From contig JBFLYA010000012.1 in NCBI GenBank assembly GCA_040757115.1, forward strand, positions 1-35,394: 35,394 nt of DNA, read 5' to 3'. This document shows positions 3,624-35,394 of the stretch, one piece after another. Numbering within the stretch: position 1 is the first letter of the stretch; every line of letters starts with the position of its first letter. This DNA is from a bacterium. GTDB lineage: Bacteria > UBA9089 > CG2-30-40-21 > SBAY01. The notes below the pieces were generated by a model. The model was not told where the DNA came from, ran no database searches, and saw nothing but the letters and a program-made list of their open reading frames with translations. The position numbers were made by a program, and so were the translations under genes.

Positions 3624-3638
3624 CAAAGGTCAGCTTTT

Positions 3639-3731
3639 TCATCCGGACTACCTCCTTAATGTTTGGGGCAATGTCTAAAAAGACAACCCTCTTCTATTAT
3701 ATCAGATATCGGGTAGTCTGGATGACTTTTT
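3639..3731 (+). terminator. Inverted repeat with T-run after nusG
   Basis: TCATCCGGACTACC (3639-3652) is inverted at 3712-3725 (GGTAGTCTGGATGA), 13 of 14 pairs, followed by CTTTTTAT. The large loop (about 59 nt) holds a small GTCT...AGAC hairpin. It can act as a terminator closing the rpmG-nusG unit, consistent with rplK being distant. Alternatively it is a repeat related to the neighbouring REP-associated transposase remnant. Confidence 0.5.
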
Positions 3732-3841
3732 ATAAATCTTTTTTAATATCTTTGAAATATAAAAGTATTATACCAGACCTCGAAAGCAGAATTAACTTGA
3801 CAAAATGAGAAAGATAAAGATTATGTTATTATAAAAGTTAT

Positions 3842-4284
3842 TATGGCAAGACCACAAGACCATGGAGAGTACAATACCAAGGTGCAATATATCATGTAAT
3901 GTCCAGAGGGGTGGCTCAACAGGAGATATTTCGTATTGAAGATGACTATCATCGATTTTTAGACTATCTTGAGAAGAGTGTGGATAAATATGGATTAGAG
4001 ATATTTGCTTTTGTGCTAATGTCGAATCATTATCATTTATTTGTGCGAACAAAGGAGGCAAATCTTTCTAATGCACTACAATGGTTGCAAACAGAAAGGG
4101 ATGTAGCCATTTATATATTATATATAGTCATACTGGATTGAGTAATAAAGAGATAGGTGAGATATTTGGAGTAAGTCCAACAGCGATAGGTAAGGCAAGT
4201 ATCCGAGTAAGAAATCAGATGAGCGACCATAAAGGATTTAAAAAGAAGGTAGAAGATATAGTTAATTCTGCTTTCGAGATCTGA
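3842..4284 (+). pseudogene. REP-associated tyrosine transposase (RAYT), decayed
   Basis: Three frames of one gene can be read. 3842 starts M-A-R-P, then a frame change leads to RPWRVQYQGAIYHVMSRGVA and a continuous stretch to A-L-Q-W-L-Q-T (about 3862-4092). This contains the HUH motif region V-L-M-S-N-H-Y-H-L-F-V of IS200/RAYT-type transposases. After a large internal deletion and another frame change comes HTGLSNKEIGEIFGVSPTAI, the C-terminal helix-turn-helix typical of longer RAYTs, ending at 4284. Full-length members are about 230-330 residues, so roughly half is missing. RAYTs are single-strand transposases associated with palindromic REP sequences; this copy cannot be active. Confidence 0.8.
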
Positions 4285-4299
4285 CCCCAATATAGTTTC

Positions 4300-4470
4300 G
4301 TGACCCCAATATGGTTTGTCCTTTGGGATAGGAGGACAGCCCTTGCCCCTGCGGTTAAAAAGGCAAAGGAACTTGAGGAAAGGGAAGAAAGGATAGAAAA
4401 GGCGCTCAAGGAATATGCGATTCAACAACCTAAATTAGCAGCAGTTTTAAGAGAAGTTGGAATTTTGTAA
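4300..4470 (+). pseudogene. Unknown C-terminal gene fragment
   Basis: An open frame ends at 4470 and encodes a charged helical tail including KKAKELEEREERIEKALKEY and A-V-L-R-E-V-G-I-L. A GTG at 4300 could start it but has no ribosome binding site. Just upstream is a 19-bp direct duplication, TGACCCCAATATAGTTT (4282-4298) and TGACCCCAATATGGTTT (4301-4317), which looks like a recombination scar next to the transposase remnant. I do not recognise the family. It may be the end of a larger gene whose front was lost. Confidence 0.35.
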
Positions 4471-4483
4471 AAACTTGACTAAA

Positions 4484-4532
4484 GATGAAACACTTATGTT
4501 CACAGCGAGTGGACATAAATGAAGAGGAAAAT
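4484..4532 (+). repeat. Covarying hairpin unit, divergent copy
   Basis: ATGTTCAC (4496-4503) pairs with GTGGACAT (4509-4516), with one G-T wobble, and is followed by a degenerate GAGGAAAAT and then TTAATGGGACGCAGATT. The same succession follows the hairpin unit at 13737-13792. The downstream stretch to about 4626 contains ACGCAGATTTTCGCAGAT words and ends with ATTTTCAGG (about 4617-4625). The region 4471-4675 holds no gene. Confidence 0.6.
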
Positions 4533-4675
4533 TAATGGGACGCAGATTTTCGCAGATAAACACAGATGAATTAGAGAATTAGATTTTTAACTTTGTGTGT
4601 CTTTGTGTAAAGAAAACTATTTTCAGGAAAAAACAATAACTTTGTTCTTTGACAATTTAATATGTTTTTTTTGTG

Positions 4676-4705
4676 TTGACAGAGGAAAGAGAGTAGTGGT
4701 ATAAT
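4676..4705 (+). promoter_or_regulatory. Sigma70-type promoter for the glycosyltransferase/secreted-protein operon
   Basis: TTGACA (4676-4681), an 18-bp spacer and TATAAT (4700-4705) give a consensus promoter 22 bp before the ATG at 4728. The three following genes are separated by 1 and 5 bases and are probably cotranscribed from here. Confidence 0.75.
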
Positions 4706-4727
4706 GGATAAGTGATGAGGTGAAGAG

Positions 4728-4937
4728 ATGGGGAAGAAAGATAGAAGACAGAAGTCAGAAGTCAGAGAACAGAAAAAGAGGAAGTGGAAGGTTCATCTTA
4801 AAATTCCAAAGTTTCTCATTCCAAAGGATGAGCCGATTGTGCCAAAGGCATTTACTCCAATAGATTATGTGGGTGGGATAGTGGTATTTTTTATCTGCGG
4901 GAGAGTATATCTATATACGATAGAGGAAATGGAATAA
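4728..4937 (+). CDS. Small single-span membrane protein, unknown
   Basis: 69 residues starting at an ATG with AGGTGAAG (4719-4726) upstream. The N-terminus D-R-R-Q-K-S-E-V-R-E-Q-K-K is encoded by the intergenic word GTCAGAA/GTCAGAG, so it is recruited repeat DNA. The middle has a basic stretch and PKDEPIVPKAFTPIDYVGG, followed by a hydrophobic segment (about residues 47-62) and a short acidic end. No family is recognised. Its stop is one base before the glycosyltransferase start at 4939, suggesting coupled translation and perhaps a helper role. The good promoter and ribosome binding site argue that it is expressed. Confidence 0.55.
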   Translation: MGKKDRRQKSEVREQKKRKWKVHLKIPKFLIPKDEPIVPKAFTPIDYVGGIVVFFICGRVYLYTIEEME

Positions 4938-4938
4938 T

Positions 4939-6813
4939 ATGGGTAAGAGGAAAAAGAAAATAAAGAAAATTAATCAAAAAACTCAAAAATCAATAATTAA
5001 AGATTTGTTAAGAAAACGATTATTTAAAAAAGAGAATTATATTATAGCAGGGATACTCATTTTTGCGTTTATTCTTCGATTAATTCACCTTTTTCAAATG
5101 CAAAGTAATTATCCCGAATTTTACTCACCTAACCCAGGAACAGATATGGGAATGTATGATAAAGCTGCTATGGAGATAGTTCATGGTAATCCAATAAAAG
5201 GTCCATTTTATTATAATCCTTTGTATTATTATTTCTTAGCCTTAAATTATTATTTATTTGGACATAACCTATTTATTATAAGATTAATCCAGGCATTATT
5301 AGGAATTATTACAGGTATATTAACATATTTTATTGCTAAAAAGATATTCAATGAAAAGGTAGCTATAATTTCTCTTTTGCTTTATGCCTTATGTGGTTAT
5401 CTTATATATTATGAAGGAGTACTCTTATCAATAAGTTTAACTACTTTCTTATGTGTAGCATCTATTTGGTTCTTTTTTCAAGCAAGGGAGAAAAAATCAA
5501 ATAAAAGATTTATCATTGGAGGTATGTTATTAGGACTGGCGACTCTTTCTCAACCTAATACTATTCTTTTTCTTCCATTTGTTCTTTTATGGATATTATT
5601 AGAGTTGAAAGAGGATGTAATAAAAAGAAGATTACAAAGATGTGCTATTGTTCTTTTAGCCTGTTTTGCAGCTATTTCTCCGATTACTATTAAAAATTAC
5701 CTTGATTCAGGAAGATTTGTTTTAATCACAACAAGTGGGTCTTTTAACTTTTGGTTAGGTAATCACGAACATTCATCAGGATGGTTTGATTTTTTTGATA
5801 GAGATTTAGAAAGACTTGAAGAAAATAAAAAGAGTGATAAGAAAATAAATGATGTTTATATAGAAGATGTGATAAGATTTATTAAAAAAGATCCACTAGA
5901 TTATCTAAAACTTTTCATAAAAAAGATACTTTTATTCTGGGGAGAATGGGATATACCTCATCAGGTACATTATGGGAAAGGTAAATTTTACTCTCCTTTA
6001 TTAAAATGCCCATTTATTCTTGATTTTGGTTTATTAGCAACATGGGGAGTTGCTGGAATATTTCTTTCTCTTAAGAGATGGTTGAAGAAAGGATTATTAC
6101 TTTATTTTTTTATTTTTGCATATAGCTTTTCAGTAGTGATTATAATGGTTAATGGAAGATATCGTCTTCCTGTGGTCCCTTTTCTTATAATCTTTGCGGG
6201 TGTTTTATTCATTTATTTATATGAGAAATTTAAAAAACGAAGATTTATCTCTCTATTCTTTTCTTTCTGGATATTAATCTTCTCAATTCTATTTGTAAAT
6301 TCTCAATTTGTTTATGCTAAAATATTTTGTATAATTAACCCTAATGGAATGTATATAGAAAGGGATAATACCCTTTTTATTAGCGATAATAGTGAAAAAT
6401 GTGCTTGGGAAGAAACAATTTCTATAAATTCACCTAATATGAAACTTAAAAAGGAATTCATTTTAATAAATGATATCTCATTTTTTAAAGAAGGGAAATT
6501 GTCCTTTGATTATATTTTTCAAGGAAATGGACATTTCATTTGTAGTATTAATGGGATAGATTCTCCACCAGCAATTTTATCATCGGATGGATTTATACAT
6601 AATATAAGATTTAAATTCCCTCCTTATTTATTAAAAAGAGGATTAAATAGTATCATTTTTAAAATTACAAATGAAGGAAAGTTAGATATACCTGTCAGTA
6701 AATATTATAATTATGAAAGATCCTATATTTATGATGGGATAAAGTGGAAAAAGATAAATGGGGAATATTTAATTCAATTAGAATTGATAAAATTTAAAAA
6801 GGAGGATTTATAA
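4939..6813 (+). CDS. PMT/ArnT-like membrane glycosyltransferase with C-terminal beta domain
   Basis: 624 residues. A lysine-rich cytoplasmic N-terminus (about 30 residues) precedes a polytopic core of roughly 11-12 hydrophobic segments to about residue 455. The first outer loop carries the PMT_2-type acidic motif in NPGTDMGMYDKAAMEIVHGN, followed by FYYNPLYYYFLALNYYLFGH, as in GT39/GT83 enzymes that move sugars from polyprenyl-phosphate carriers to lipids or proteins outside the membrane. The last 150 or so residues form a soluble beta-rich domain (KRGLNSIIFKITNEG, Y-Y-N-Y-E-R-S-Y-I-Y-D-G-I-K-W). The same architecture and many identical positions occur in the protein at 33101-34951, so the two are paralogues. 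The next gene encodes a giant secreted protein, a possible acceptor; this is inference. Confidence 0.8.
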   Translation: MGKRKKKIKKINQKTQKSIIKDLLRKRLFKKENYIIAGILIFAFILRLIHLFQMQSNYPEFYSPNPGTDMGMYDKAAMEIVHGNPIKGPFYYNPLYYYFLALNYYLFGHNLFIIRLIQALLGIITGILTYFIAKKIFNEKVAIISLLLYALCGYLIYYEGVLLSISLTTFLCVASIWFFFQAREKKSNKRFIIGGMLLGLATLSQPNTILFLPFVLLWILLELKEDVIKRRLQRCAIVLLACFAAISPITIKNYLDSGRFVLITTSGSFNFWLGNHEHSSGWFDFFDRDLERLEENKKSDKKINDVYIEDVIRFIKKDPLDYLKLFIKKILLFWGEWDIPHQVHYGKGKFYSPLLKCPFILDFGLLATWGVAGIFLSLKRWLKKGLLLYFFIFAYSFSVVIIMVNGRYRLPVVPFLIIFAGVLFIYLYEKFKKRRFISLFFSFWILIFSILFVNSQFVYAKIFCIINPNGMYIERDNTLFISDNSEKCAWEETISINSPNMKLKKEFILINDISFFKEGKLSFDYIFQGNGHFICSINGIDSPPAILSSDGFIHNIRFKFPPYLLKRGLNSIIFKITNEGKLDIPVSKYYNYERSYIYDGIKWKKINGEYLIQLELIKFKKEDL

Positions 6814-6818
6814 AGAAA

Positions 6819-9800
6819 ATGTATAAAAGAAAAATTTTATTGATAGGGATATTAATATTTATAGGAATAGGAAATAATATAGAAATTGCGAAAGCAGAGG
6901 TAGTAGAAGTAAGTGGAAATGTATATGGAACATGGACTAGTGGCAACATCTATGTTGCCACTGATACAATCAGTGTAGCGAGTAATACCACTTTAACTAT
7001 TCAACCTAATGTAATAGTGAAGATTACTCCGGGTAAAAGATTAAATGTGTATGGTAAGTTGATTGCGGAAGGTATAGAATCAGGAACTATCACTTTTACT
7101 TCTTTAAAGGATGATATTGGAGGAGATACAAATGGAGATGGAACATCTACCTCTCCTACTGCTGGAGATTGGAGTGGATGCATTTTTGATGGTGAGGGAA
7201 GTATAGGTAGCAAACTAGATCACTGTGTAGTAAGGTATACTTACAAATATGGAATTTCCATTATTTCATCTTCTATTTCTATTAATAATTCTGATATTTG
7301 TGAAGTTTATGCTACCTGGGAAGGAGGTGAATATGTAGAAGTTCCTTCTTATGGAATTTATGTTTCATCAGGTACCTTAACCATTGTCAACTCCAATATT
7401 TTTAATATTTCTTCTTATGCACTGGGAGAGCGTTTTGGACAACCCCTTGGATATGGAATTTATATTTCTGGTGGTATTGTATATATTAGTAATTGTAATA
7501 TTTTAAAGATTAGAAGTAGTAATGATTTGTATGGAGTATCAAAAGCCTATGGAATTTATGGGTCATCTACCATATCTTATATCAATAACTCTAATTTTTC
7601 TCAAATTGAAGGAGAAACCAATATTGCCTCATCAGAAGCCTATGGAATTTACTTTTCTAACTCATCTGTTTTTATTAATGATGAAAACTACATTTCACAA
7701 GTAACAAGTAAAGGTAGTTCTTATGGAATATATGTTTGTAATTCATCATCTCCATTCACCATTTTAAACTCTAAGATTTTTAAAATCATAGGTAATGGCT
7801 ATGCTTACGGAATTTATCTTTCCAATATATTATCTGAAGGTATCATTCGTGGTATTAATATATTCGAAGTTAAGGGAAGAAATAATGGATATGGTCTCTA
7901 TCTGCTCTCTGGACAATTGTCAATTATGGATAATGAGATTTATGATATTAAAGGAGAGTGTGTTGGATATTATGGTTTAGGTTATGGATATGGTATTTAC
8001 ATAGTTTCTGGACAAGTATCAATTATGATTAATAACATTTATGATATTAAAGGAATTGCTAATTTTTCATGGAATGAATTTGGATATGGTATTTATCTAT
8101 CCCAAACACAATCATCAATATTAGGTAATAACATTTATGACATAGGGAGTGGAGGTACTACCTATTACTTATGGGCAGATGGTACACAGACAGCAGAATA
8201 TAATTGGTGGGGTAGTACCTTTCCAATTCCTTTTAACTTCTCTAACAATATTGATTATGACCCTTGGCTGAAAGGAACATATACAGGATACGCACTAATT
8301 ACTATTTTACCTACTTATGGAACGGTGGGAAACTTGGTATCTATAAGAGGTATTGGTTACAATCCAACAGAGCAAATAAAAATCGATTTTGGGACATCAT
8401 ACAATTATACCGAAGTATCAACAAACGCCGATGGTATGTTTTCTACTTCCTTCATTGTAAATACGCAACCTTATGGCCCTACTTCAATTGTAGCTACTGG
8501 GTTAAGTTCTAATAAAACTGCTTCGAATTACTTTCGTATCCTACCTCATATTTTATTTGTATCACCCAGTAGCGGTACTATTGGAAGTTTTGTTACCATT
8601 GAAGGTAATGGATTTGGTAAGATGGATACTATACGGGTTGATTTCGGAACAACTATATCTATCTGTAATATAATGTCAAATACCTATGGGACATTTATTG
8701 CTACCTTTACCGTAGATACTCAAGCCTATGGAACCATTCCTATTGGCTGTTATGGGATGACATCAGGTGCCTATGACTATGAATACTTCTTTATCAGAGG
8801 GAATATTGTCTGGATAAGTCCAACGCAGGGAACTGTTGGTTCGGCTGTGACTATAATGGGCAACGGCTTTGGAGCAACTGAACTAATCGGCATAGATTTT
8901 GGCACCACACTAAACATTAACCAGTGCACCACGACTACAGACGGGAAATTTACTACCCTATTTACGATAGATACCCAACCTTTCGGCATTACTACTATTA
9001 CAGTTAGAGGGATGCAGACTGGTTTGGTGGATAAGGCTGGATTTACTATCCTGCCAAATATTGCCCTTATCAGCCCTATTTCTGGGACTATCGGTTCTAT
9101 TGTCACCGTAATGGGTAATGGATTTGGTGCTACGGAATTGATCAGGATTGAATTTGGTAATATTCGTACTATTACCACTGTTTATACTTATGCTACTGGG
9201 GAATTTCAGACAGTATTTACAGTAGATTCTCAGCCGATTGGGACAACGACTATCATTGCTCATGGTTTGATGACTAATGCCTATGCTCTGGCACAGTTCA
9301 TTATTCTTCCATTAACTACTTTAAAGATTACACCTGCCTTACAAAATGTAGCTGTTAATTCAACATTTACCTGCCAGGTGGAGATAGAGGATGTGGAAAG
9401 ACTAAGAGGTGTGGAATTACATCTTAGTTTTAATCCCAATATCCTTGAAGTAAAAGAGATTGGGACAGGTACATTTCCACCAGATGGTTGGGTAATGCAG
9501 AATAAGTATGATAATATCAAAGGAGAGATAGATTATACCATTGGGTTGATTTCTGGCTCTGCTACTGGTTCAGGGGACATTTGTAAAATAAAATTTAAAG
9601 CAATATCAGGTGGTACATCAACTGTAATATTTGATTTTACTAGACCCAACCGTATCACAAAACTATTAGATATAGGAAACAACGGAATTCCATTTAAGAA
9701 AGAAGAGACTATGTATCAGGTAATCACTGGTATCGAAATCAAGCCAAAAGATAAAGAGATTCGTGCAGATGAAACTATTGATTATACCTGCCTTGCATCA

Positions 9801-11588
9801 TGTGGAAGTTTAGAACTTGATGTTACTGGCTCTACTACCTTTACTTCAAATGGTGGTGGCTCTTTTACACTTAATACCTTCCATGCAAAATATATGAATA
9901 CATATACAATTCAAGGGGAATATCTTGGATTTATTGGAACTACATCAGTGATTATCCTACCTGGCACTCCAACAACTTTAGTTTATGTATCAGGAAATGG
10001 TCAGGTTAATACCTGTACCTTTACCTTAAAAGACCCATTTATAGTTAAGGTAGTGGATAAATATGAAAACCCTTGCCAGGATGTAGAGGTAAAGTGGGAA
10101 ATTATCTCTATCCCTTCTGGTGCAACTTTATATTCTATCTCCCCAACTAAAACCACAACCAATGTTCAAGGTACAGCGTCATCTTTCCTTACCTTAGGTA
10201 CAGAACCTCCAGGTACATATAATGTACATGCTATTTCAACTGGATTAAGTGGGTCTCCCTGTACTTTTACTGCACATTCATTAAGGCGATTTGGTAATAT
10301 AGCTGGTTTTTGCATGTTGGATTTGGGGACAGTTACATTAGGTACATGTTCAGATATTCAGGTAAGGATTGTAGAGCTTGGTACAACTACAATGACTAAT
10401 AATAATTCTTATTTCATCTTTAAGAATATACCAGTAGGAACTTATACCCTTACTTTTGATACATGGGGTGCATCGTCAGCAACTAATACCAATATCTGTA
10501 TTAGCCGAGCACAATTTGAGGATACTACATACATTGGTACTATTACACTATTAGCAGGAGATGTAAATAATGATGGCAAAGTAAATATTGGAGATTGGCC
10601 TGGATTTGTAGACAGTTTTGGTGATTATGAAGGTAATCCTGAAGGTAATTGGGAACAAACCAAAGAAGGAAATTTTAATCATGATAAGGTTGTTGATATT
10701 TGTGATTTTGGTATCTTTGCAGATAATTTTGGTAAACAGCAGCAAAAAGGTAAGACTAAAGAATTAACTACAATGCCTGCTCGTACTAAAAAGACCTCTG
10801 GTAGGATAGAGTTGTCCTTTGACCTTCAGACACTTGCAGGGGTAGATATTAATGAACTGCGTGTTGGAAATATTATCTATCTTAAGATATATGTTCGTGA
10901 TGCAAAAGACTACCTTGGTGGTGAAATACACTTGTCATTTAATCCAAAGGTATTACAGGTAATAGATGCGGATAACGGCAAAGATGGTATCCAGATTCAA
11001 CCGGGGGATTTCCCACGGGGTTCAGTGAAACATCAGGCTGATATTCTGAAGAATGAAGTAGATAATTCATCAGGTAAGATTGATTATGCTGTCGTAGTCT
11101 GGGAGCCAGAGAGAGATGATGAAGGATTATTAGCTACCGTGCCATTCAGGGTCATTTCTTGTGATGCCTATTCTAAAGTTAATTTTGAGTTTGATGATGA
11201 AGAAAACCGGGAAACAAAGTTTATCGAAAGAATTGGTCAGGAACAACCTGTTGACCAGCAACCTGATGTATTACCTGATGAAATAACTATCAAAGTGCCA
11301 GCGGTATATAATAATTTAGAGAAGGCACTGGTCTATCCCAATCCTTCTTATAACGGGAAAGAGGTAACCTTTACGCAGATTACCACTGATAAACAGGTTA
11401 CTTTAAGAATATATAACTTAGCCGGTGAATTAGTCATTGAGAAACAAAAAGATAACATCTATGATAGCCAGATTAAATGGAATTTAAAGAATAAAGATAA
11501 CGAAGATGTTGCCTCAGGTATTTACATCTATTTCTTAAAGGATGAACTTGGCTCGGTTAAGAAAGGTAAGATTGGGGTGATAAAGTAA
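6819..11588 (+). CDS. Giant secreted multidomain protein: beta-helix, IPT repeats, cohesins, dockerin, FlgD/T9SS-like tail
   Basis: 1589 residues with a signal peptide (MYKRKILLIGILIFIGIG, cleavage likely after AKA near residue 26). About residues 60-470 form a right-handed beta-helix with some ten coils of 28-33 residues, each opening with Y-G-I-Y-x-S. Four IPT/TIG-like immunoglobulin repeats begin near 491, 578, 662 and 747 (ISPTQGTVGSAVTIMGNGFG). A cohesin-like module spans about 835-945 (GVELHLSFNPNILEVKEIG). A Big-type region covers about 1050-1150 and a carboxypeptidase-regulatory-like fold about 1156-1240. A dockerin-like pair of calcium loops lies at about 1245-1306 (GDVNNDGKVNIGDWPGFVDS). 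A second cohesin-like module covers about 1328-1467. The C-terminus (1501-1589) has ALVYPNPSYNG and GIYIYF..KKGKIGVIK, a FlgD-like domain related to type IX sorting tails. It is probably a surface-anchored adhesin or glycan-binding protein. Confidence 0.85.
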   Translation: MYKRKILLIGILIFIGIGNNIEIAKAEVVEVSGNVYGTWTSGNIYVATDTISVASNTTLTIQPNVIVKITPGKRLNVYGKLIAEGIESGTITFTSLKDDIGGDTNGDGTSTSPTAGDWSGCIFDGEGSIGSKLDHCVVRYTYKYGISIISSSISINNSDICEVYATWEGGEYVEVPSYGIYVSSGTLTIVNSNIFNISSYALGERFGQPLGYGIYISGGIVYISNCNILKIRSSNDLYGVSKAYGIYGSSTISYINNSNFSQIEGETNIASSEAYGIYFSNSSVFINDENYISQVTSKGSSYGIYVCNSSSPFTILNSKIFKIIGNGYAYGIYLSNILSEGIIRGINIFEVKGRNNGYGLYLLSGQLSIMDNEIYDIKGECVGYYGLGYGYGIYIVSGQVSIMINNIYDIKGIANFSWNEFGYGIYLSQTQSSILGNNIYDIGSGGTTYYLWADGTQTAEYNWWGSTFPIPFNFSNNIDYDPWLKGTYTGYALITILPTYGTVGNLVSIRGIGYNPTEQIKIDFGTSYNYTEVSTNADGMFSTSFIVNTQPYGPTSIVATGLSSNKTASNYFRILPHILFVSPSSGTIGSFVTIEGNGFGKMDTIRVDFGTTISICNIMSNTYGTFIATFTVDTQAYGTIPIGCYGMTSGAYDYEYFFIRGNIVWISPTQGTVGSAVTIMGNGFGATELIGIDFGTTLNINQCTTTTDGKFTTLFTIDTQPFGITTITVRGMQTGLVDKAGFTILPNIALISPISGTIGSIVTVMGNGFGATELIRIEFGNIRTITTVYTYATGEFQTVFTVDSQPIGTTTIIAHGLMTNAYALAQFIILPLTTLKITPALQNVAVNSTFTCQVEIEDVERLRGVELHLSFNPNILEVKEIGTGTFPPDGWVMQNKYDNIKGEIDYTIGLISGSATGSGDICKIKFKAISGGTSTVIFDFTRPNRITKLLDIGNNGIPFKKEETMYQVITGIEIKPKDKEIRADETIDYTCLASCGSLELDVTGSTTFTSNGGGSFTLNTFHAKYMNTYTIQGEYLGFIGTTSVIILPGTPTTLVYVSGNGQVNTCTFTLKDPFIVKVVDKYENPCQDVEVKWEIISIPSGATLYSISPTKTTTNVQGTASSFLTLGTEPPGTYNVHAISTGLSGSPCTFTAHSLRRFGNIAGFCMLDLGTVTLGTCSDIQVRIVELGTTTMTNNNSYFIFKNIPVGTYTLTFDTWGASSATNTNICISRAQFEDTTYIGTITLLAGDVNNDGKVNIGDWPGFVDSFGDYEGNPEGNWEQTKEGNFNHDKVVDICDFGIFADNFGKQQQKGKTKELTTMPARTKKTSGRIELSFDLQTLAGVDINELRVGNIIYLKIYVRDAKDYLGGEIHLSFNPKVLQVIDADNGKDGIQIQPGDFPRGSVKHQADILKNEVDNSSGKIDYAVVVWEPERDDEGLLATVPFRVISCDAYSKVNFEFDDEENRETKFIERIGQEQPVDQQPDVLPDEITIKVPAVYNNLEKALVYPNPSYNGKEVTFTQITTDKQVTLRIYNLAGELVIEKQKDNIYDSQIKWNLKNKDNEDVASGIYIYFLKDELGSVKKGKIGVIK

Positions 11589-11654
11589 AGCAGAGAGTAG
11601 AAAGTAGAGAGTAGAGAAAAAACTATCTTGCTACTCGATATTTATTCAATTTCC

Positions 11655-11769
11655 GTAACCGTTCAGGTGATAATTTACCGCAGAGACGCAAGAGGACACA
11701 CCCCTAACCCCTCTCAAGAGGTGTGTGTTTTTCTCTGCAAACTCTTTTGTCTGTGCGGTGAACGGTTAC
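11655..11769. repeat. Nested palindromic element with GTAACCGTTCAG ends, before rplK
   Basis: GTAACCGTTCA (11656-11666 region) is inverted as TGAACGGTTAC (11759-11769). Inside are CCGCAGAGACGCAAGAG-type words opposed to CTCTGCAAACTCTTTTGTC and G-T-G-C-G-G, and a core hairpin with arms ACACACC and GGTGTGTGT followed by five T. The core is terminator-like in the plus direction, though it could simply be a repeat. The outer ends are identical to those at 315-558, but the interior is wholly different. It separates the secreted-protein operon from rplK and fills most of 11589-11820. Heptamer AGTAGAG words lie at 11591-11615. Confidence 0.75.
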
Positions 11770-11820
11770 CTACAAGCTTTAGTGTGCATCCTTTTCGCGA
11801 GACATTTACAGGAGACTAAT

Positions 11821-13546: not shown

Positions 13547-13604
13547 CCAGGACCAAAGACTATAGACCGAAGACCAAAGGCAAAAAACAGCGGGTAGCTG
13601 GTAG

Positions 13605-13676: not shown

Positions 13677-13736
13677 AAACTGTTTTCAGGGGAATGTAGT
13701 TTTGTAAATCTGTGTAATCTGCGAAATCTGCGGATT

Positions 13737-14124
13737 ATTTTCAGGAGAAACCGGGCATGTCCACGGTGGTGGACACAAACGACGATGAAAATTAATGGGA
13801 CGCAGATTTACAGGATTTACAAGATTTTAAAGAAAAACCACTAAGGCACTATAAAAACATCAAGAAACTCTAAGGAAATAACTATAGAAATACAATATAA
13901 AAAATTAATTTTAATCCTGTTCATCTGCGAAAATCTGCGTCCTAATTTACATTTTCAGGGGAAACGGACATGAGCCAGGGCTCACAAAGGGCAATGAAAA
14001 TGGGAGAAAGACAACCCCCTAACCCCCTTTATTAAGGGGGAATATCTGTTCTACACCAGAGGATACGAGTCTGTGGATACTATACTAATTCGCTAATCTC
14101 TAATTCACTAATTCGCTATTTTCA
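13737..14124 (+). repeat. Chain of covarying hairpin units and TGAAAAT/ATTTTCA palindromes
   Basis: Hairpin unit one (13737-13792) runs from ATTTTCAGGAGAAAC through stem TGTCCAC/GTGGACA to TGAAAAT. Between its TGAAAAT and the next ATTTTCA (13951-13957) is a palindrome with arms GGACGCAGATTT and AAATCTGCGTCC. Unit two (13951-14001) has stem TGAGCC/GGCTCA. A second spacer (14002-14117) holds a CCCCCTAACCCCC / TTAAGGGGG repeat and CTAATTC words and ends in ATTTTCA (14118-14124). The half-unit that follows, CAGGGGAAACAGGG, directly precedes the ATG at 14137. Each complete unit contains an SD-like AGGRG, an ATG and a short frame (12 codons in unit one, 21 in unit two). Confidence 0.75.
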
Positions 14125-14136
14125 GGGGAAACAGGG

Positions 14137-14514
14137 ATGAGTAGAATTGTAAAGAAAATCGAAATTGAAGGGAAAGAAGTTATGGCACTGTTTGATACTG
14201 GTGCAATGCATACTTATGTCTGCAATGAAATTGTGGGTAGTGCCCCGACAATAATTATCCCGGAGCCGTATAAGGTTGCATTTGATGGGAGAATAATTGA
14301 AGTCAAAAAACTCTGTCTTTTATGGGGTAAAATTGAAGGCAGAGGATTAGATATGGAGGCAGTGCCGATAGATGACATCGGGAGAATAAATGGAAATAAG
14401 ATAGATGTGGTCATTGGCGCATTAACTATGGAAAAGTGGGAAATAATCCCTAATCCAAAAGATGGAACATTAGATTTAACAGGACTCAAACGACGTGAAT
14501 TTATTGAGTTTTGA
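14137..14514 (+). CDS. Retropepsin-like aspartic protease, single domain
   Basis: 125 residues. The motif A-L-F-D-T-G-A near residue 17-23 is the catalytic D-T/S-G-A of retroviral-type aspartic proteases. Near the C-terminus [12 protein letters not shown] matches the second conserved segment (hydrophobic-hydrophobic-G-x-x) followed by I-I-P-N-P and G-T-L-D-L. One catalytic aspartate per chain means it would act as a homodimer. There is no signal peptide. It lies between rplJ and rplL, an atypical place, behind a chain of hairpin repeats whose last half-unit provides its leader. The substrate is unknown. It may have been carried in with the repeats. Confidence 0.75.
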
Positions 14515-18616: not shown

Positions 18617-18990
18617 TAGGGTTCTGCAAAATAGGATTTGGGGGAGACAATAAATAAATATTAAATATCAAATATTAAATATCAAAATGCAAAATTACAA
18701 ATCAAATTTCAAATTGGTAATATCTTTGCTTCAAGTATTTTAACGCTGAAAGGAAAGAGATAATTTTACTGAACTGTGGCAAAGATAGTTGATAGTTTAT
18801 AGTTGATAGTTTATAGTTGATAGTAGATAGTTGAAGGACTATAGACTATAAACTATAAACCATAAACTATAAACTATACACTATAAACTATAAACGAGTT
18901 TTGCATTTTGCTCTTTGGAGGAAATTGATAAAAATAGAGGTTTTAAATACCCGCTTAAAAACTACAGTTTCCTAGTTTTGCAGAACCCTA
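18617..18990. repeat. Large nested palindromic element between rpoB and rpoC
   Basis: TAGGGTTCTGCAAAA (18617-18631) is inverted exactly at 18976-18990. Inside are AAATATT/AAATATC heptamers (18655-18685), ATAGTTG/ATAGTTT heptamers (18787-18830) and their inverse ACTATAA heptamers (18840-18895), which can pair as a long AT-rich hairpin. The outer flanks (18555-18616) carry GGTAACT/ACCAATT words that also pair with each other. No gene lies in 18549-19020. The element sits inside the usually tight rpoB-rpoC junction, so any transcript joining the two genes must read through it. Confidence 0.75.
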
Positions 18991-23247: not shown

Positions 23248-23884
23248 CACGGATTAGCACGGATAAATACAGAGGTCAGAGGAGAGATGAGAAAGGGGGA
23301 AACGGAGAAGGAAAGGAGACACGAGGCACTATAGCAGTTATTAGTCAAAACTTTACTCAGAGTGGATAAGTAAAAAAAATCCCAAATCCCAAGCACCAAA
23401 TCTCAAATAAACACCAAATTCCGCATACCAAAAAGCGAATTATATCAATTCTATAAAGTTTTTGCCTCTTTGTCAACACGAATGCACACGAATAAGAAGC
23501 AAATATTCCCCCTTAATAAAGGGGGTTAGGGGGTTGTTGACCTATAGGCGTTAAGATATAAGGCTTATTAAAGAGGTAGAAATTAACTAAAATTGATATT
23601 AGAGATTAGTGAATTAGAGATTAGATTTTACTAATTCGCTAATTCGCTTAATTCACTAATTCACTAAATGGAATTTGGAATTTGTGATTTGGAATTTCAT
23701 AGCCATATCTATGTCAAATTTCGATTAATAAGTGCTATATATGAAATTGGCAAATATCAAGGTTGGTCTATTGATAAATTTCAATGTGGAAAGATTGAAA
23801 AAAGGCATAAAGAGATTTGTTCTGTCCAATCTTCGTGTCCTTCGTGCTCTTCGTGGTGAATAGTTACGTTTAAGACAAAAATGA
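23248..23884. repeat. Gene-free region of word repeats after rpoC
   Basis: No convincing gene is present. AAATCCC/AAATCCC and ACCAAATTCC words (23378-23423) are inverted at 23665-23700 (GGAATTT heptamers). Within that pair lie CACGAATGCACACGAATAAG (near 23480), a CCCCCTTAATAAAGGGGG repeat with GGGGGTTGT (23509-23538) and CTAATTC/GATTAGA words (23595-23665). Past the pair, 23700-23820 is less repetitive and could be a gene remnant on the plus strand. It is followed by CACGAAG-type 9-bp words and GTGAATAGTTACG, a possible degenerate copy of the GTAACCGTTCAG end. rpoC and the minus-strand glycosyltransferases converge here. Confidence 0.6.
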
Positions 23885-27630: not shown

Positions 27631-27659
27631 TTGACAAAATCTCTTATCTTGTGTATACT
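27631..27659 (+). promoter_or_regulatory. Sigma70-type promoter placing the start site at the ATG
   Basis: TTGACA (27631-27636), a 17-bp spacer and TATACT (27654-27659). The start of transcription would fall at about 27665-27667, on the ATG at 27666. The mRNA would then be leaderless; no Shine-Dalgarno is present. The rest of 27487-27630 is word-like AT-rich DNA. Confidence 0.6.
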
Positions 27660-27665
27660 CTTTGT

Positions 27666-28589
27666 ATGAAAAGGAAAGAATGGCATCCTTATTTTTCCAG
27701 TGTTTTGAAGCATCTACTTGAACCTAAAGGGTTTAAGGTTGAAACCCAGGTTGAGGTTGGAGAAATGCCATTGAAAATAGATGTAGTGGTGATTAAAAAA
27801 GGTAAGGATGCAGATGTTAAGTCCTTACCTCTGGTCTTTCAATCCTTTACTGATTACAATATTATCGAGTATAAATCACCTAAAGACAGGTTCAGACGAG
27901 ATGATTTTGATAGATTATTTGCCTATGTGCTTTTATTTAAGATTAAAGAGGGGATACAGTGGCGCAGGCAAATAAATGTCTATGCCCTTATATCAGGAGG
28001 CATAAAAGGGATAGAAGATTACATTCGCAGGAATGGACATGAGCTTGTACGGATAAAGGAAGGGTTTTACTTTGCTGATTTTGGGTTTAATTTTTATTTG
28101 ATACAGTTGGATAAGTTAGAGGCATCTCCTGAAAACTATAAATTGCTTCTTTTCACCTCTGGGGAGAAGGTGAAAGAGTTAGTGAAGGGGATTTGTGAGA
28201 GGGGTAAGGAAATATTAGAGGTAGATTTAATAGAGTTAATCGAGACTGGATTATATTTACATCCTGAGGAATTCAGGGAGGAGGTGAAATTGATGCCGCA
28301 GACATTAGCCGATAGACCAGATATAATAGGTGAGTTAGCAGATATAGTAGGGGTGGATATATTTGTGCAAGGAATAGGAAAAGAGAAAGTGATTCGTAGC
28401 CTTGGTGAGGAGGATGTAATTCGTAGCCTTGGCGAAGAGAAAGTGATTCGTAGCCTTGGCGAAGAGAAAGTGATTCGTAGCCTTGGCGAAGAGAAGATAA
28501 TTCGTAGCCTTGGCGAAGAGAAGATACAAAAGAATCTTATAAAACTCCTGGGCAAGGAAAAGATAAAAAAGATGTTAGAGGAAAACTAA
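27666..28589 (+). CDS. PD-(D/E)XK nuclease-like protein with tandem 9-residue repeats
   Basis: 307 residues from ATG 27666; a GTG at 27651 in the same frame overlaps the -10 box and is not credible. The N-terminal part has a nuclease-like pattern: K-I-D-V-V-V-I-K-K followed by N-I-I-E-Y-K-S-P-K-D and a basic R-F-R-R-D-D-F-D-R, resembling the D...ExK core of PD-(D/E)XK families such as Rpn/PDDEXK transposase-like proteins. It is not recognised more closely. Residues 242-286 are five tandem copies of VIRSLGEEK encoded by a 27-bp minisatellite, followed by I-Q-K-N-L-I-K-L-L-G-K-E-K. A helical C-terminal tail of repeating E/K motifs is common in such proteins. It stands alone, facing the minus-strand operons. 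Confidence 0.6.
   Translation: MKRKEWHPYFSSVLKHLLEPKGFKVETQVEVGEMPLKIDVVVIKKGKDADVKSLPLVFQSFTDYNIIEYKSPKDRFRRDDFDRLFAYVLLFKIKEGIQWRRQINVYALISGGIKGIEDYIRRNGHELVRIKEGFYFADFGFNFYLIQLDKLEASPENYKLLLFTSGEKVKELVKGICERGKEILEVDLIELIETGLYLHPEEFREEVKLMPQTLADRPDIIGELADIVGVDIFVQGIGKEKVIRSLGEEDVIRSLGEEKVIRSLGEEKVIRSLGEEKIIRSLGEEKIQKNLIKLLGKEKIKKMLEEN
28133..28160 (+). repeat. 28-bp direct repeat, copy within the nuclease-like gene
   Basis: This coding segment (starting AAACTATAAATTGCTTC) is matched at 28591-28618 with a single mismatch (27 of 28). The second copy begins two bases after the stop codon region, 458 bp further on. It suggests a past tandem duplication of the gene end followed by deletion, or slippage involving the minisatellite. 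Confidence 0.7.
28389..28523 (+). repeat. In-frame 27-bp minisatellite, five copies
   Basis: Five head-to-tail units of 27 bp, core GATTCGTAGCCTTGGCGAAG, encode V/I-I-R-S-L-G-E-E-K/D. Units three and four are identical; the others differ by a few bases, mostly at the ends. Being a multiple of three, copy number can vary without frameshift, so the protein length may be polymorphic between strains. Confidence 0.9.
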
Positions 28590-33100: not shown

Positions 33101-34951
33101 TTAATACACCGGATTAGAAAGTAATTCTAATTGAATCATTAACTCTCCTTCGACCTTTTCCCAGTTAATCCCATCTTCAGAAAATGAGGAACGACCAAAA
33201 TTGTAATAATTATCTACCATTATTCCAACCTCTGCCCCTTCTATGACAGTTAAAGTGATAATATTTCGCCCTTTTTTAAGGATTAAATTAGGGTTTTGGA
33301 ACTTAAATCGCACCTGGCGAACAAAAGGACCATAAGGAATATTTTTACAATCTACCACGGAAAATAATATATCATTCATTTTGATTATTAATTTACCTCT
33401 ATCTGTGCAGGAATAGGTTAGACTTATACCTGCAGTATCAAATTTAGAGACATCCTTATTGATAATAATTTCTTTTTTTAGAATTTTCTGCGGTGTGTCC
33501 AATGTCTTTTTTATATCGCCGTGCCAATCGCCGCTATCATCCCGAAACAAAAATCCTTCCCGTTTTTCAAGACAAAATCCATCTGGATAAATCAACGGAT
33601 ATGTCCAGCCATAAAATGTGTGGAAATCAATAACCGTATAAAGAACCAGAAAAAGGATTAATGTTGCAAAAAAGGAGATTAATCTTTTACGCTGGATTTT
33701 TTTATACCAATAATAAATTGTCACGCCGGCAAAGATACTCAAATAAGGAACAATCGGCACTCTAAATCGAGATTGAATAAAGAAGAAAACAATGGCACTC
33801 ATATAGCCAAAGATAACTAAATATAAAAGAAATAAGTTTTTATTTAATCTTCCAAGACTCAGGAATAATCCCATTATTCCTAATGAAGCAACCAGCCCAA
33901 AGGGAATCATTATTCTAAGTAAAGGAGATAGTTTTAAAAATCGGTCATAAACGACATCGTTATCTGGAATTTCATAAGCATTCCAGAACACGGTAATTTT
34001 TTTAAATAAAAGTCGAAGGTATTTCTCAGGTTTTTCCTTGATAAATCTTATGGCATCCTCGCTGTAAAAGTTTTTATTTTTACTACTCATCTCATCCGCA
34101 TAAGGAGGTAAATGATAAAAACCTTCAGAATCCTCATTATTCCCAGCCCAAAAGGCAACAGGTCCCGTGGCGGTCAAAAGAATAAATTTACCGCTATATT
34201 TATAATTACGGTAGGTCACCGGGGCAAAGGTTAGAGCCATACCTAAAACAATAAGCCCACCGGCACATAAAAATCTCTTGTTCATACCCAGTCTAATCAA
34301 TAACCATAATAATAAAAATGGAAAAACTAAAAGAGTAGTGGCACGAGATAATGATGAAAGGGCTAAAATTACCCCTGCGGCAAAATACCATCTCATAGAA
34401 TTTTGTGAGACACTTTTTAAAAGGACAAAGACACTTAACAGGAGTAAAAAACTATCTAAAACGGTTGTCAAAAGCAAGGTTTCATAAACCATAAAGGCAC
34501 CATAAAGGCTACAAATCCCGGCGGCAATCATTCCAATATTTTTATTGAAAAGTTGTTTTGCAATTAAATAGACAATCAGACAAGTTCCTAATCCCATAAA
34601 TATCTGAACAATTATTGCCTTAAATGGCTCATGCCCAACAAAGGAATAGATTAAAGCCAGAAAATAAAAATATAACGGATTATAACTATAAGGCGTTTTC
34701 GATAGCGTTCCATCTAATACCTGCATAGCTAAGGCATCATAACAACCACTATCTGTGCCTTCAAAATGGAGAAAATTAGGGTCGTTATTTTTTACCTGAA
34801 ATAAAAAAATAAGCCTCAAGATTAACCCAATTAAAAGAATGCCAACTAAAATAAATTTATGTTTATGTTTTGATGGGAATTTTTTTATCTTATCTTTGAA
34901 AGAGATATGAGGTAGAGGAGTCTTTTTTTTGTGTAATTTTTTTTTAGACAT
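33101..34951 (-). CDS. PMT/ArnT-like membrane glycosyltransferase with C-terminal beta domain (paralogue of 4939-6813)
   Basis: 616 residues from ATG 34951 (M-S-K-K-K-L-H-K-K-K), preceded by CAGGAGAATGGT. The frame extends 36 codons upstream but through repeat DNA only. A basic N-terminus precedes about 11-12 membrane segments. The first outer loop has F-E-G-T-D-S-G-C-Y-D-A-L-A-M followed by YSYNPLYFYFLALIYSFVGH, parallel to the 4939-6813 enzyme. The C-terminal 150-residue soluble domain (LKKGRNIITLTVIEGAEVGI, Y-Y-N-F-G-R-S-S-F-S-E-D-G-I-N-W) also matches that enzyme, so both arose by duplication. It probably moves a sugar from a lipid carrier to an extracytoplasmic acceptor. It is the first gene before ubiA-mqnE and has three hairpin/palindrome repeats upstream. 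Confidence 0.82.
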   Translation of the reverse strand: MSKKKLHKKKTPLPHISFKDKIKKFPSKHKHKFILVGILLIGLILRLIFLFQVKNNDPNFLHFEGTDSGCYDALAMQVLDGTLSKTPYSYNPLYFYFLALIYSFVGHEPFKAIIVQIFMGLGTCLIVYLIAKQLFNKNIGMIAAGICSLYGAFMVYETLLLTTVLDSFLLLLSVFVLLKSVSQNSMRWYFAAGVILALSSLSRATTLLVFPFLLLWLLIRLGMNKRFLCAGGLIVLGMALTFAPVTYRNYKYSGKFILLTATGPVAFWAGNNEDSEGFYHLPPYADEMSSKNKNFYSEDAIRFIKEKPEKYLRLLFKKITVFWNAYEIPDNDVVYDRFLKLSPLLRIMIPFGLVASLGIMGLFLSLGRLNKNLFLLYLVIFGYMSAIVFFFIQSRFRVPIVPYLSIFAGVTIYYWYKKIQRKRLISFFATLILFLVLYTVIDFHTFYGWTYPLIYPDGFCLEKREGFLFRDDSGDWHGDIKKTLDTPQKILKKEIIINKDVSKFDTAGISLTYSCTDRGKLIIKMNDILFSVVDCKNIPYGPFVRQVRFKFQNPNLILKKGRNIITLTVIEGAEVGIMVDNYYNFGRSSFSEDGINWEKVEGELMIQLELLSNPVY

Positions 34952-34961
34952 ACCATTCTCC

Positions 34962-35353
34962 TGAAAATAGGAAGTAGAGAGTAGAAAGTAGAGAGTAGAG
35001 AGAAAATCTTTCCTCCACCCTGTTTTTCCCCTATTTTCATTCTCCTGTTGTGAACCCACGGTTCATGAGCATTTCTCCTGAAAATCGGGACTTGGGACTC
35101 GGGAAGAAAGAAACTCTCAGCAATTCCCCCTTAATAAAGGGGGTTAGGGGGTTGTCCTTCTCCCATTTTCATTGCCCTTTGTGAGCCTTGGCTCATGTCC
35201 GTTTCTCCTGAAAATAGCCGTAAGAATAGAACACGGATGACACGGATTTAACGGATTTTCGCTGATTTTTTTCTCTTTTTTCTGTCTTCTATCTGCTCTC
35301 CGCGAATATCCGCATCATCAGCGTCATCAGCGTGCTATTATTTTTCATCGTCC
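34962..35353 (-). repeat. Chain of covarying hairpin units and TGAAAAT/ATTTTCA palindromes upstream of the glycosyltransferase
   Basis: Read on the minus strand: TGAAAAAT (near 35353), a palindrome of 9-bp words (ACACGGAT and GCGTCATCA types), ATTTTCA, then a hairpin unit with stem GAGCC/GGCTC (unit 35165-35215). Next come TGAAAAT, a CCCCCTAACCCCC / TTAAGGGGG repeat, ATTTTCA and a hairpin unit with stem GAACC/GGTTC (35033-35095). Last come TGAAAAT, AGTAGAG heptamers and ATTTTCAGGAGAATGGT leading straight into the ATG at 34951. The unit at 35165-35215 and its neighbour match 13951-14042 almost base for base over about 90 bp. No gene is present in 34952-35394. Confidence 0.75.
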
Positions 35354-35394
35354 TCGTATAATATATATTGTTGGTCATTTTGAATGCCACAATC

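Follow-up and report, generated by a model that had tools for sequence, protein, structure and literature searches.

The window analysed here is a whole contig of 35,394 nt (JBFLYA010000012.1, assembly GCA_040757115.1) from a bacterium of the GTDB lineage UBA9089; CG2-30-40-21; SBAY01. Between the ribosomal protein genes rplJ and rplL it carries two short hairpin units in tandem, followed by a small gene whose protein has no match in Pfam or NCBIfam. The product is probably a retropepsin-like protein: it has a DTGA motif, and in the sister species the array between rplJ and rplL (L150) holds a second, neighbouring gene that matches the clan AA aspartic protease family TIGR03698. Further units lie upstream and, on the minus strand, near the contig end. 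Elsewhere in the window a 27-bp tandem repeat (28354-28522) within the gene at 27651-28589 encodes VIRSLGEEK-like protein repeats.

A covariance model trained on copies from elsewhere recovered all five units that the sequence-only reading had placed in the window, with E values of 6e-12 to 1e-5 (Table 1). The flanks common to the five, ATTTTCAGGRGAAAC and GATGAAAAT, agree with its description. Each unit contains a Shine-Dalgarno sequence and a well-spaced ATG, the A of which is invariant, and the half-unit taken for the leader of the gene at 14137 is indeed that leader. None of the five is complete in itself, however: each forms the left portion of a longer element, which extends as far as the next ATTTTCAGGRGAA.

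Table 1. Elements and associated features in the window (CM R1, covariance-model match).
Feature	Position	Strand	Evidence
Degenerate element: GAAAC and hairpin TGTTCAC..GTGGACA to 4532, GCGTCC-type filler, right end ATTTTCAGGAA (4619-4629)	4487..4629	+	CM R1 4483-4532, E 1e-5; sequence
Right end TTTTCAGGGGAA of an upstream hairpin-less module (TTTCACGC inverted repeat), also in sister species	13683..13694	+	sequence
Element 1: neighbour's right-end sequence ATTTTCAGGAGAA (13737-13749), hairpin TGTCCAC..GTGGACA (unit 13747-13792), GCGTCC filler to 13950	13737..13950	+	CM R1 13743-13792, E 9.9e-9
Element 2: ATTTTCAGGGGAA (13951-13963), hairpin TGAGCC..GGCTCA (unit 13961-14001), CCCCCTAACCCCC / CTAATTCGCT filler to 14117	13951..14117	+	CM R1 13957-14001, E 6.3e-12
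Terminal right end ATTTTCAGGGGAA, Shine-Dalgarno of the gene at 14137; AGGGG to ATG 8 nt; sister species ATTTTCAAAGGAAACAGGGATG	14118..14130	+	
Gene behind that right end: 125 aa, DTGA motif, between rplJ and rplL	14137..14514	+	
Partial element at contig end: tail ATGAAAAA (35342-35349), then filler	35216..35394	-	
Element: ATTTTCAGGAGAA, hairpin TGAGCC..GGCTCA (to 35165), CCCCCTAACCCCC / CCCGAGTCCC filler	35086..35215	-	CM R1 35209-35165, E 8.4e-12
Element: ATTTTCAGGAGAA, hairpin TGAACC..GGTTCA (to 35033), CTCTACTTCCT filler	34969..35085	-	CM R1 35079-35033, E 3.9e-11
Terminal right end ATTTTCAGGAGAA, Shine-Dalgarno of mannosyltransferase-like gene, ATG at 34951 (-)	34956..34968	-	

The anatomy of the element was derived from about 0.96 Mb of the window's genome and 1.28 Mb of the sister species. 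It is modular: between its two boundaries the full layout reads GAAACGnnCATG-hairpin(TG+4-5 bp..CA)-CACAAAnGAnGA-TGAAAAT-filler-ATTTTCA-GGRGAA. The 117 complete elements measure 90-290 bp from GAAAC to GAA, most of them 120-180 bp. The filler between the hairpin and the right end is framed by the complementary arms TGAAAAT and ATTTTCA, which were partly a selection criterion for the filler set and are thus not independent evidence. The 104 distinct fillers fall into 11 classes, some with strong inverted repeats and others without, and 7-nt words occur in them. Arrays of 7-8-nt words (GTTGATA, AAGACCA, GTAGAGA, CTAATTC) are found both in fillers and in intergenic DNA, in the window at 18779-18904, 13552-13584, 11588-11622 and 23624-23666. 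Another type of element, ending in GTAACCGTTCA and containing CCTGATTTTCATCAGGG hairpins and CGCAGAGACACAGAG-like repeats, is seen at 4100-4355 of L185 (G000:C9) and at 18735-19094 of L267.

The hairpin stems were tested on 68 distinct 40-nt units that had been picked by their flanks alone, pairing not being a criterion. Pairing is found in 90.9% of stem cells, compared to 73.2% once the 3' letters are shuffled, and changes on both sides are seen in 74 cells, against 30.8 in the shuffled sets; none of 500 shuffles reached the observed value of either measure. The claim that the stems covary therefore holds as to double-sided changes, but pairing is not strict. The stems form discrete subfamilies (AACC/GGTT, AGTC/GACT, AGCC/GGCT, CCCC/GGGG, CCCAC/GTGGG, TCCAC/GTGGA and others), almost always within TG..CA, and some units combine arms of two subfamilies that no longer pair fully, such as TGCCCC..GGCTCA and TGAATC..GACTCA.

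The elements are dispersed in many copies through the genome. The window's genome (4.3 Mb in 462 contigs) has 136 occurrences of the core TTTTCAGGRGAAA and none of its reversed control. By the covariance model there are at least 149 copies in this genome and at least 147 in that of the sister species, both being fragmented metagenome-assembled genomes. Four other genomes of the phylum have 2-4 copies, and the remaining 13 genomes have none. This pattern amounts to a burst of an older element in a single genus.

Over long syntenic blocks the two species mostly share 92-99% identity, and 186 kb of their orthologous DNA was compared. The elements differ in presence and absence, showing recent turnover. 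At the array between rplJ and rplL, flanks that are 96-99% identical enclose 407 bp in the window and 1,044 bp in the sister species, with different elements and an extra gene in the latter. At another locus pair (L222/L159) one species has five core motifs and the other none. A clean presence/absence of about 166 bp was found at a TTTCAGGAGAA site (L205/L155); it is a precise insertion or loss, which could also have come about by deletion between its 11-bp direct repeats. The two genomes differ by other DNA as well. About 8.2 kb between nusG and rplK (window 3630-11811), holding a Y1 transposase fragment, a mannosyltransferase-like gene and a gene for a 1,589-aa repeat protein, is missing from the sister species, where the nusG-rplK gap is about 300 bp (L150 13881-14188). 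Between rplA and rplJ the sister species has a MITE-like insertion (L150, G001:C46, 12402-12695) with GTAACTATTCACCG / CGGTGAATAGTTAC ends, an ATGAAG direct repeat and a protein-gene fragment inside; elements with GTAACYRTTCA ends recur in both genomes.

The boundaries of the element are sharp. The left-most copies interrupt a native AGGAG. When 63 hits without an upstream TTTTC (mostly left-most copies, with a few chance matches) were aligned at the fixed GAAAC, the upstream sequence was near-random down to position -5 and then read AGGA, with 81, 81, 87 and 89% conservation per base. The A/G base of the right end ATTTTCAGGRGAA tracks the type of filler (41:14 vs 15:31, p 5e-5), and the left and right 4-mers are identical in just 8 of 19 single elements and differ in the other 11. 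In two other genera, the copies at L043 and L059 have no AGGA to the left of their initial GAAAC and yet end in ATTTTCAGGGG on the right. The right end is therefore borne by the element. A model of target-site duplication found no support in the same 19 elements. Where the flanks of insertions at gene starts were joined, a purine Shine-Dalgarno core was left in 13 of 16.

A preference for sites just upstream of start codons, raised by the sequence-only reading, is borne out. In 65 of 104 cases a start codon follows the terminal right end, usually at a distance of 1-6 nt from its GAA, compared to 8% of random noncoding positions under the same criterion (a same-strand open frame of 80 codons or more that starts within 33 nt, genes being simple ORF calls). 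In the sister species the Shine-Dalgarno sequence of gltX, a gene named from its N-terminal sequence, is the end of an element. Availability of sites is by itself insufficient to produce the preference, since of Shine-Dalgarno-like noncoding sites only 14% (AGG[AG]GAA), 20% (GGAG) or 33% (AAGGAG) are positioned as Shine-Dalgarno sequences; purging of harmful insertions may contribute. About a third of the terminal right ends have no called gene start after them, some of these preceding short or truncated genes.

Taken together, the units are probably a family of short non-autonomous mobile elements that insert in Shine-Dalgarno sites and restore them. This is the third of the readings that had been offered from the sequence, a mobile palindrome that targets and rebuilds ribosome binding sites, and it agrees with the number of copies, the native AGGAG on the left flanks, the Shine-Dalgarno-bearing right end, the enrichment at start codons and the differences between the species. 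An element would insert, presumably by transposition, into a purine-rich AGGAG(A), typically the Shine-Dalgarno of a gene, and the target would stay on its left flank. The right end would bring a new AGGRGAA, so that the downstream gene keeps a Shine-Dalgarno at normal spacing, from which translation would continue. The rebuilt end would be a fresh target, and arrays would build up head to tail before the same gene because each insertion recreates the site. By analogy with IS200/IS605, the enzyme might recognize the hairpins in single-stranded DNA. The full version, a transposable family specific for the Shine-Dalgarno and carrying a ready-made trailing one, for which insertion before genes is near-neutral and landing sites are recreated into arrays, stands at an even chance. 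Recombination between repeats probably contributes to the array changes. An autonomous copy was not found in the 2.2 Mb read, where hairpins without a near right end led into ordinary genes only.

The other two readings, a hairpin acting as a translation switch or as a link in a chain of leader uORFs, make the unit an RNA regulator. A well-spaced Shine-Dalgarno and ATG in each unit, pairing that survives double changes, and a right end that holds the Shine-Dalgarno of genes are what such a regulator would have. Nevertheless the hairpin lengths of 14, 15, 16, 17, 18 and 19 nt break the frame of any uORF peptide, the same hairpin stands before unrelated genes and also where no start codon or gene follows, and the arrays turn over between species. 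The Rfam search of the window returned a tRNA and no other RNA family. The kind of mismatch is also informative. A selected mRNA fold would tolerate G-U above A-C on the sense strand, and the stems show the reverse, with 34 A.C and 14 G.T mismatches in 96 distinct units counted without regard to relatedness, or 20 and 11 if position 6, the site of most A.C, is omitted. This balance makes an RNA role less likely and leans against it. The regulator is thus improbable, and the covariation is better read as the product of hairpin subfamilies at the DNA level. When a repeated hairpin shows compensatory changes, a functional RNA does not necessarily lie behind them, as a family of DNA hairpins can leave the same mark; template switching can also yield them (PMC8794818).

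Three other explanations stay at the level of DNA. The arrays might have arisen without dedicated transposition, slippage and homologous recombination between ATTTTCAGGRGAA copies swapping the fillers and resizing the arrays. The mixed stem arms, the fillers of 11 classes interchangeable behind the same hairpin, the hairpin-less derivatives that resemble short-repeat deletions and the 11-bp direct repeat at the clean polymorphic site all agree with this. It leaves unexplained, however, how left-most copies came to lie with a sharp boundary in native AGGAG at more than 40 unrelated loci, and why there was a burst in one genus, and it is unlikely as the whole account. A classical MITE that depends on a DDE transposase, has GAAA..TTTC as its termini and duplicates an AGGR target of 4 bp would fit the complementary ends and the eight single elements with the same 4-mer on both sides. 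The 11 with unequal 4-mers show that a duplication is not constant, the right 4-mer depends on the filler, the outgroup copies have AGGG on the right only, and a match limited to GAAA/TTTC makes terminal inverted repeats of 4 bp, which is unusually short; this origin is quite doubtful. Most improbable is that the hairpin is an attC-like site of an integron integrase. The genome does encode a full-length integron-type integrase (G000:C39, 368 bits) besides fragments, and terminal boxes around a variable stem, in arrays, recall an integron. The left box is missing from left-most copies, however, and the attC-like repeats beside an integrase fragment are TCTAAC..GTTAGA rather than ATTTTCA/TGAAAAT. 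GTTRRRY is the textbook type of attC box; as the boxes of the element differ from RYYYAAC..GTTRRRY and the attC-like repeats are separate, the link was dropped. The integrase hit, many integrase fragments and the TCTAAC/GTTAGA repeats come from the same genome (G000:C39 13643-14572 and L221 1-1500).

Mobile elements usually avoid gene starts or damage them. The elements considered here seem to leave the target gene translatable, because the trailing end is itself a ribosome-binding site. If the mobile-element reading is true, the family would be a plain example of selfish DNA that seeks out ribosome-binding sites, restores them and through this mimicry escapes the harm that an insertion does; it would also provide a natural rule of target choice. 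A mobile hairpin with a trailing end of this type would also account for what had appeared from the sequence as covarying hairpin leaders.

The open-access literature yielded nothing useful on elements aimed at Shine-Dalgarno sites, and the family was compared with known systems of short repeats. Integron attC arrays likewise place boxes around a variable hairpin and form arrays, whereas the present elements have other boxes, no usual gene cassettes and a Shine-Dalgarno target. In cyanobacteria, SDR (very small mobile repeats) are tiny hairpin repeats inserted among arrays of heptamer words. The tiny hairpins and the 7-nt words in fillers are a likeness, but the sequences are unrelated, and SDR are not known to target Shine-Dalgarno sites. 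The BOX, RUP and SPRITE repeats of pneumococcus are modular, interspersed, MITE-like and mostly <200 bp, and large BOX elements can encode reading frames; they are enriched between convergent genes, however, while the present elements are enriched right at start codons and carry a Shine-Dalgarno (PMC3049150). CGTC-tagged REPs (PMC3733652) are palindromes that vary in their stems and lack a transposase of their own, as here, but the present hairpins lack CGTC at the foot and sit within a longer element with a filler and a Shine-Dalgarno end.

Palindromic elements derived from IS200/IS605 (PATEs, PMC7290912) and REP/BIME/REPIN sequences with TnpA-REP (PMC8266576, PMC3116915) are likewise short and non-autonomous with a hairpin near the end. 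These systems also share with the present elements a target-like right end and many dispersed and clustered copies, and may share a fixed short target on the left flank without a clear duplication. PATEs and REPINs have subterminal hairpins at both ends; here the left hairpin is constant, and the right side has the complementary arms TGAAAAT/ATTTTCA around a filler that is strongly self-complementary in only some of the 11 classes. The left AGGA, at 81-89% per base, may correspond to their fixed target; no undisputed empty site was found. A Y1 (HUH) transposase or RAYT partner with the same ends was not seen among the 11 Y1 loci of the two genomes, none of which is flanked by a hairpin unit. 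In place of the GTAG foot of REPs, the consensus foot is CA|TG..CA|CAAA. The present family thus differs from these systems in its foot and in having no Y1 transposase gene with these ends, and in that its target is the Shine-Dalgarno, which the right end restores.
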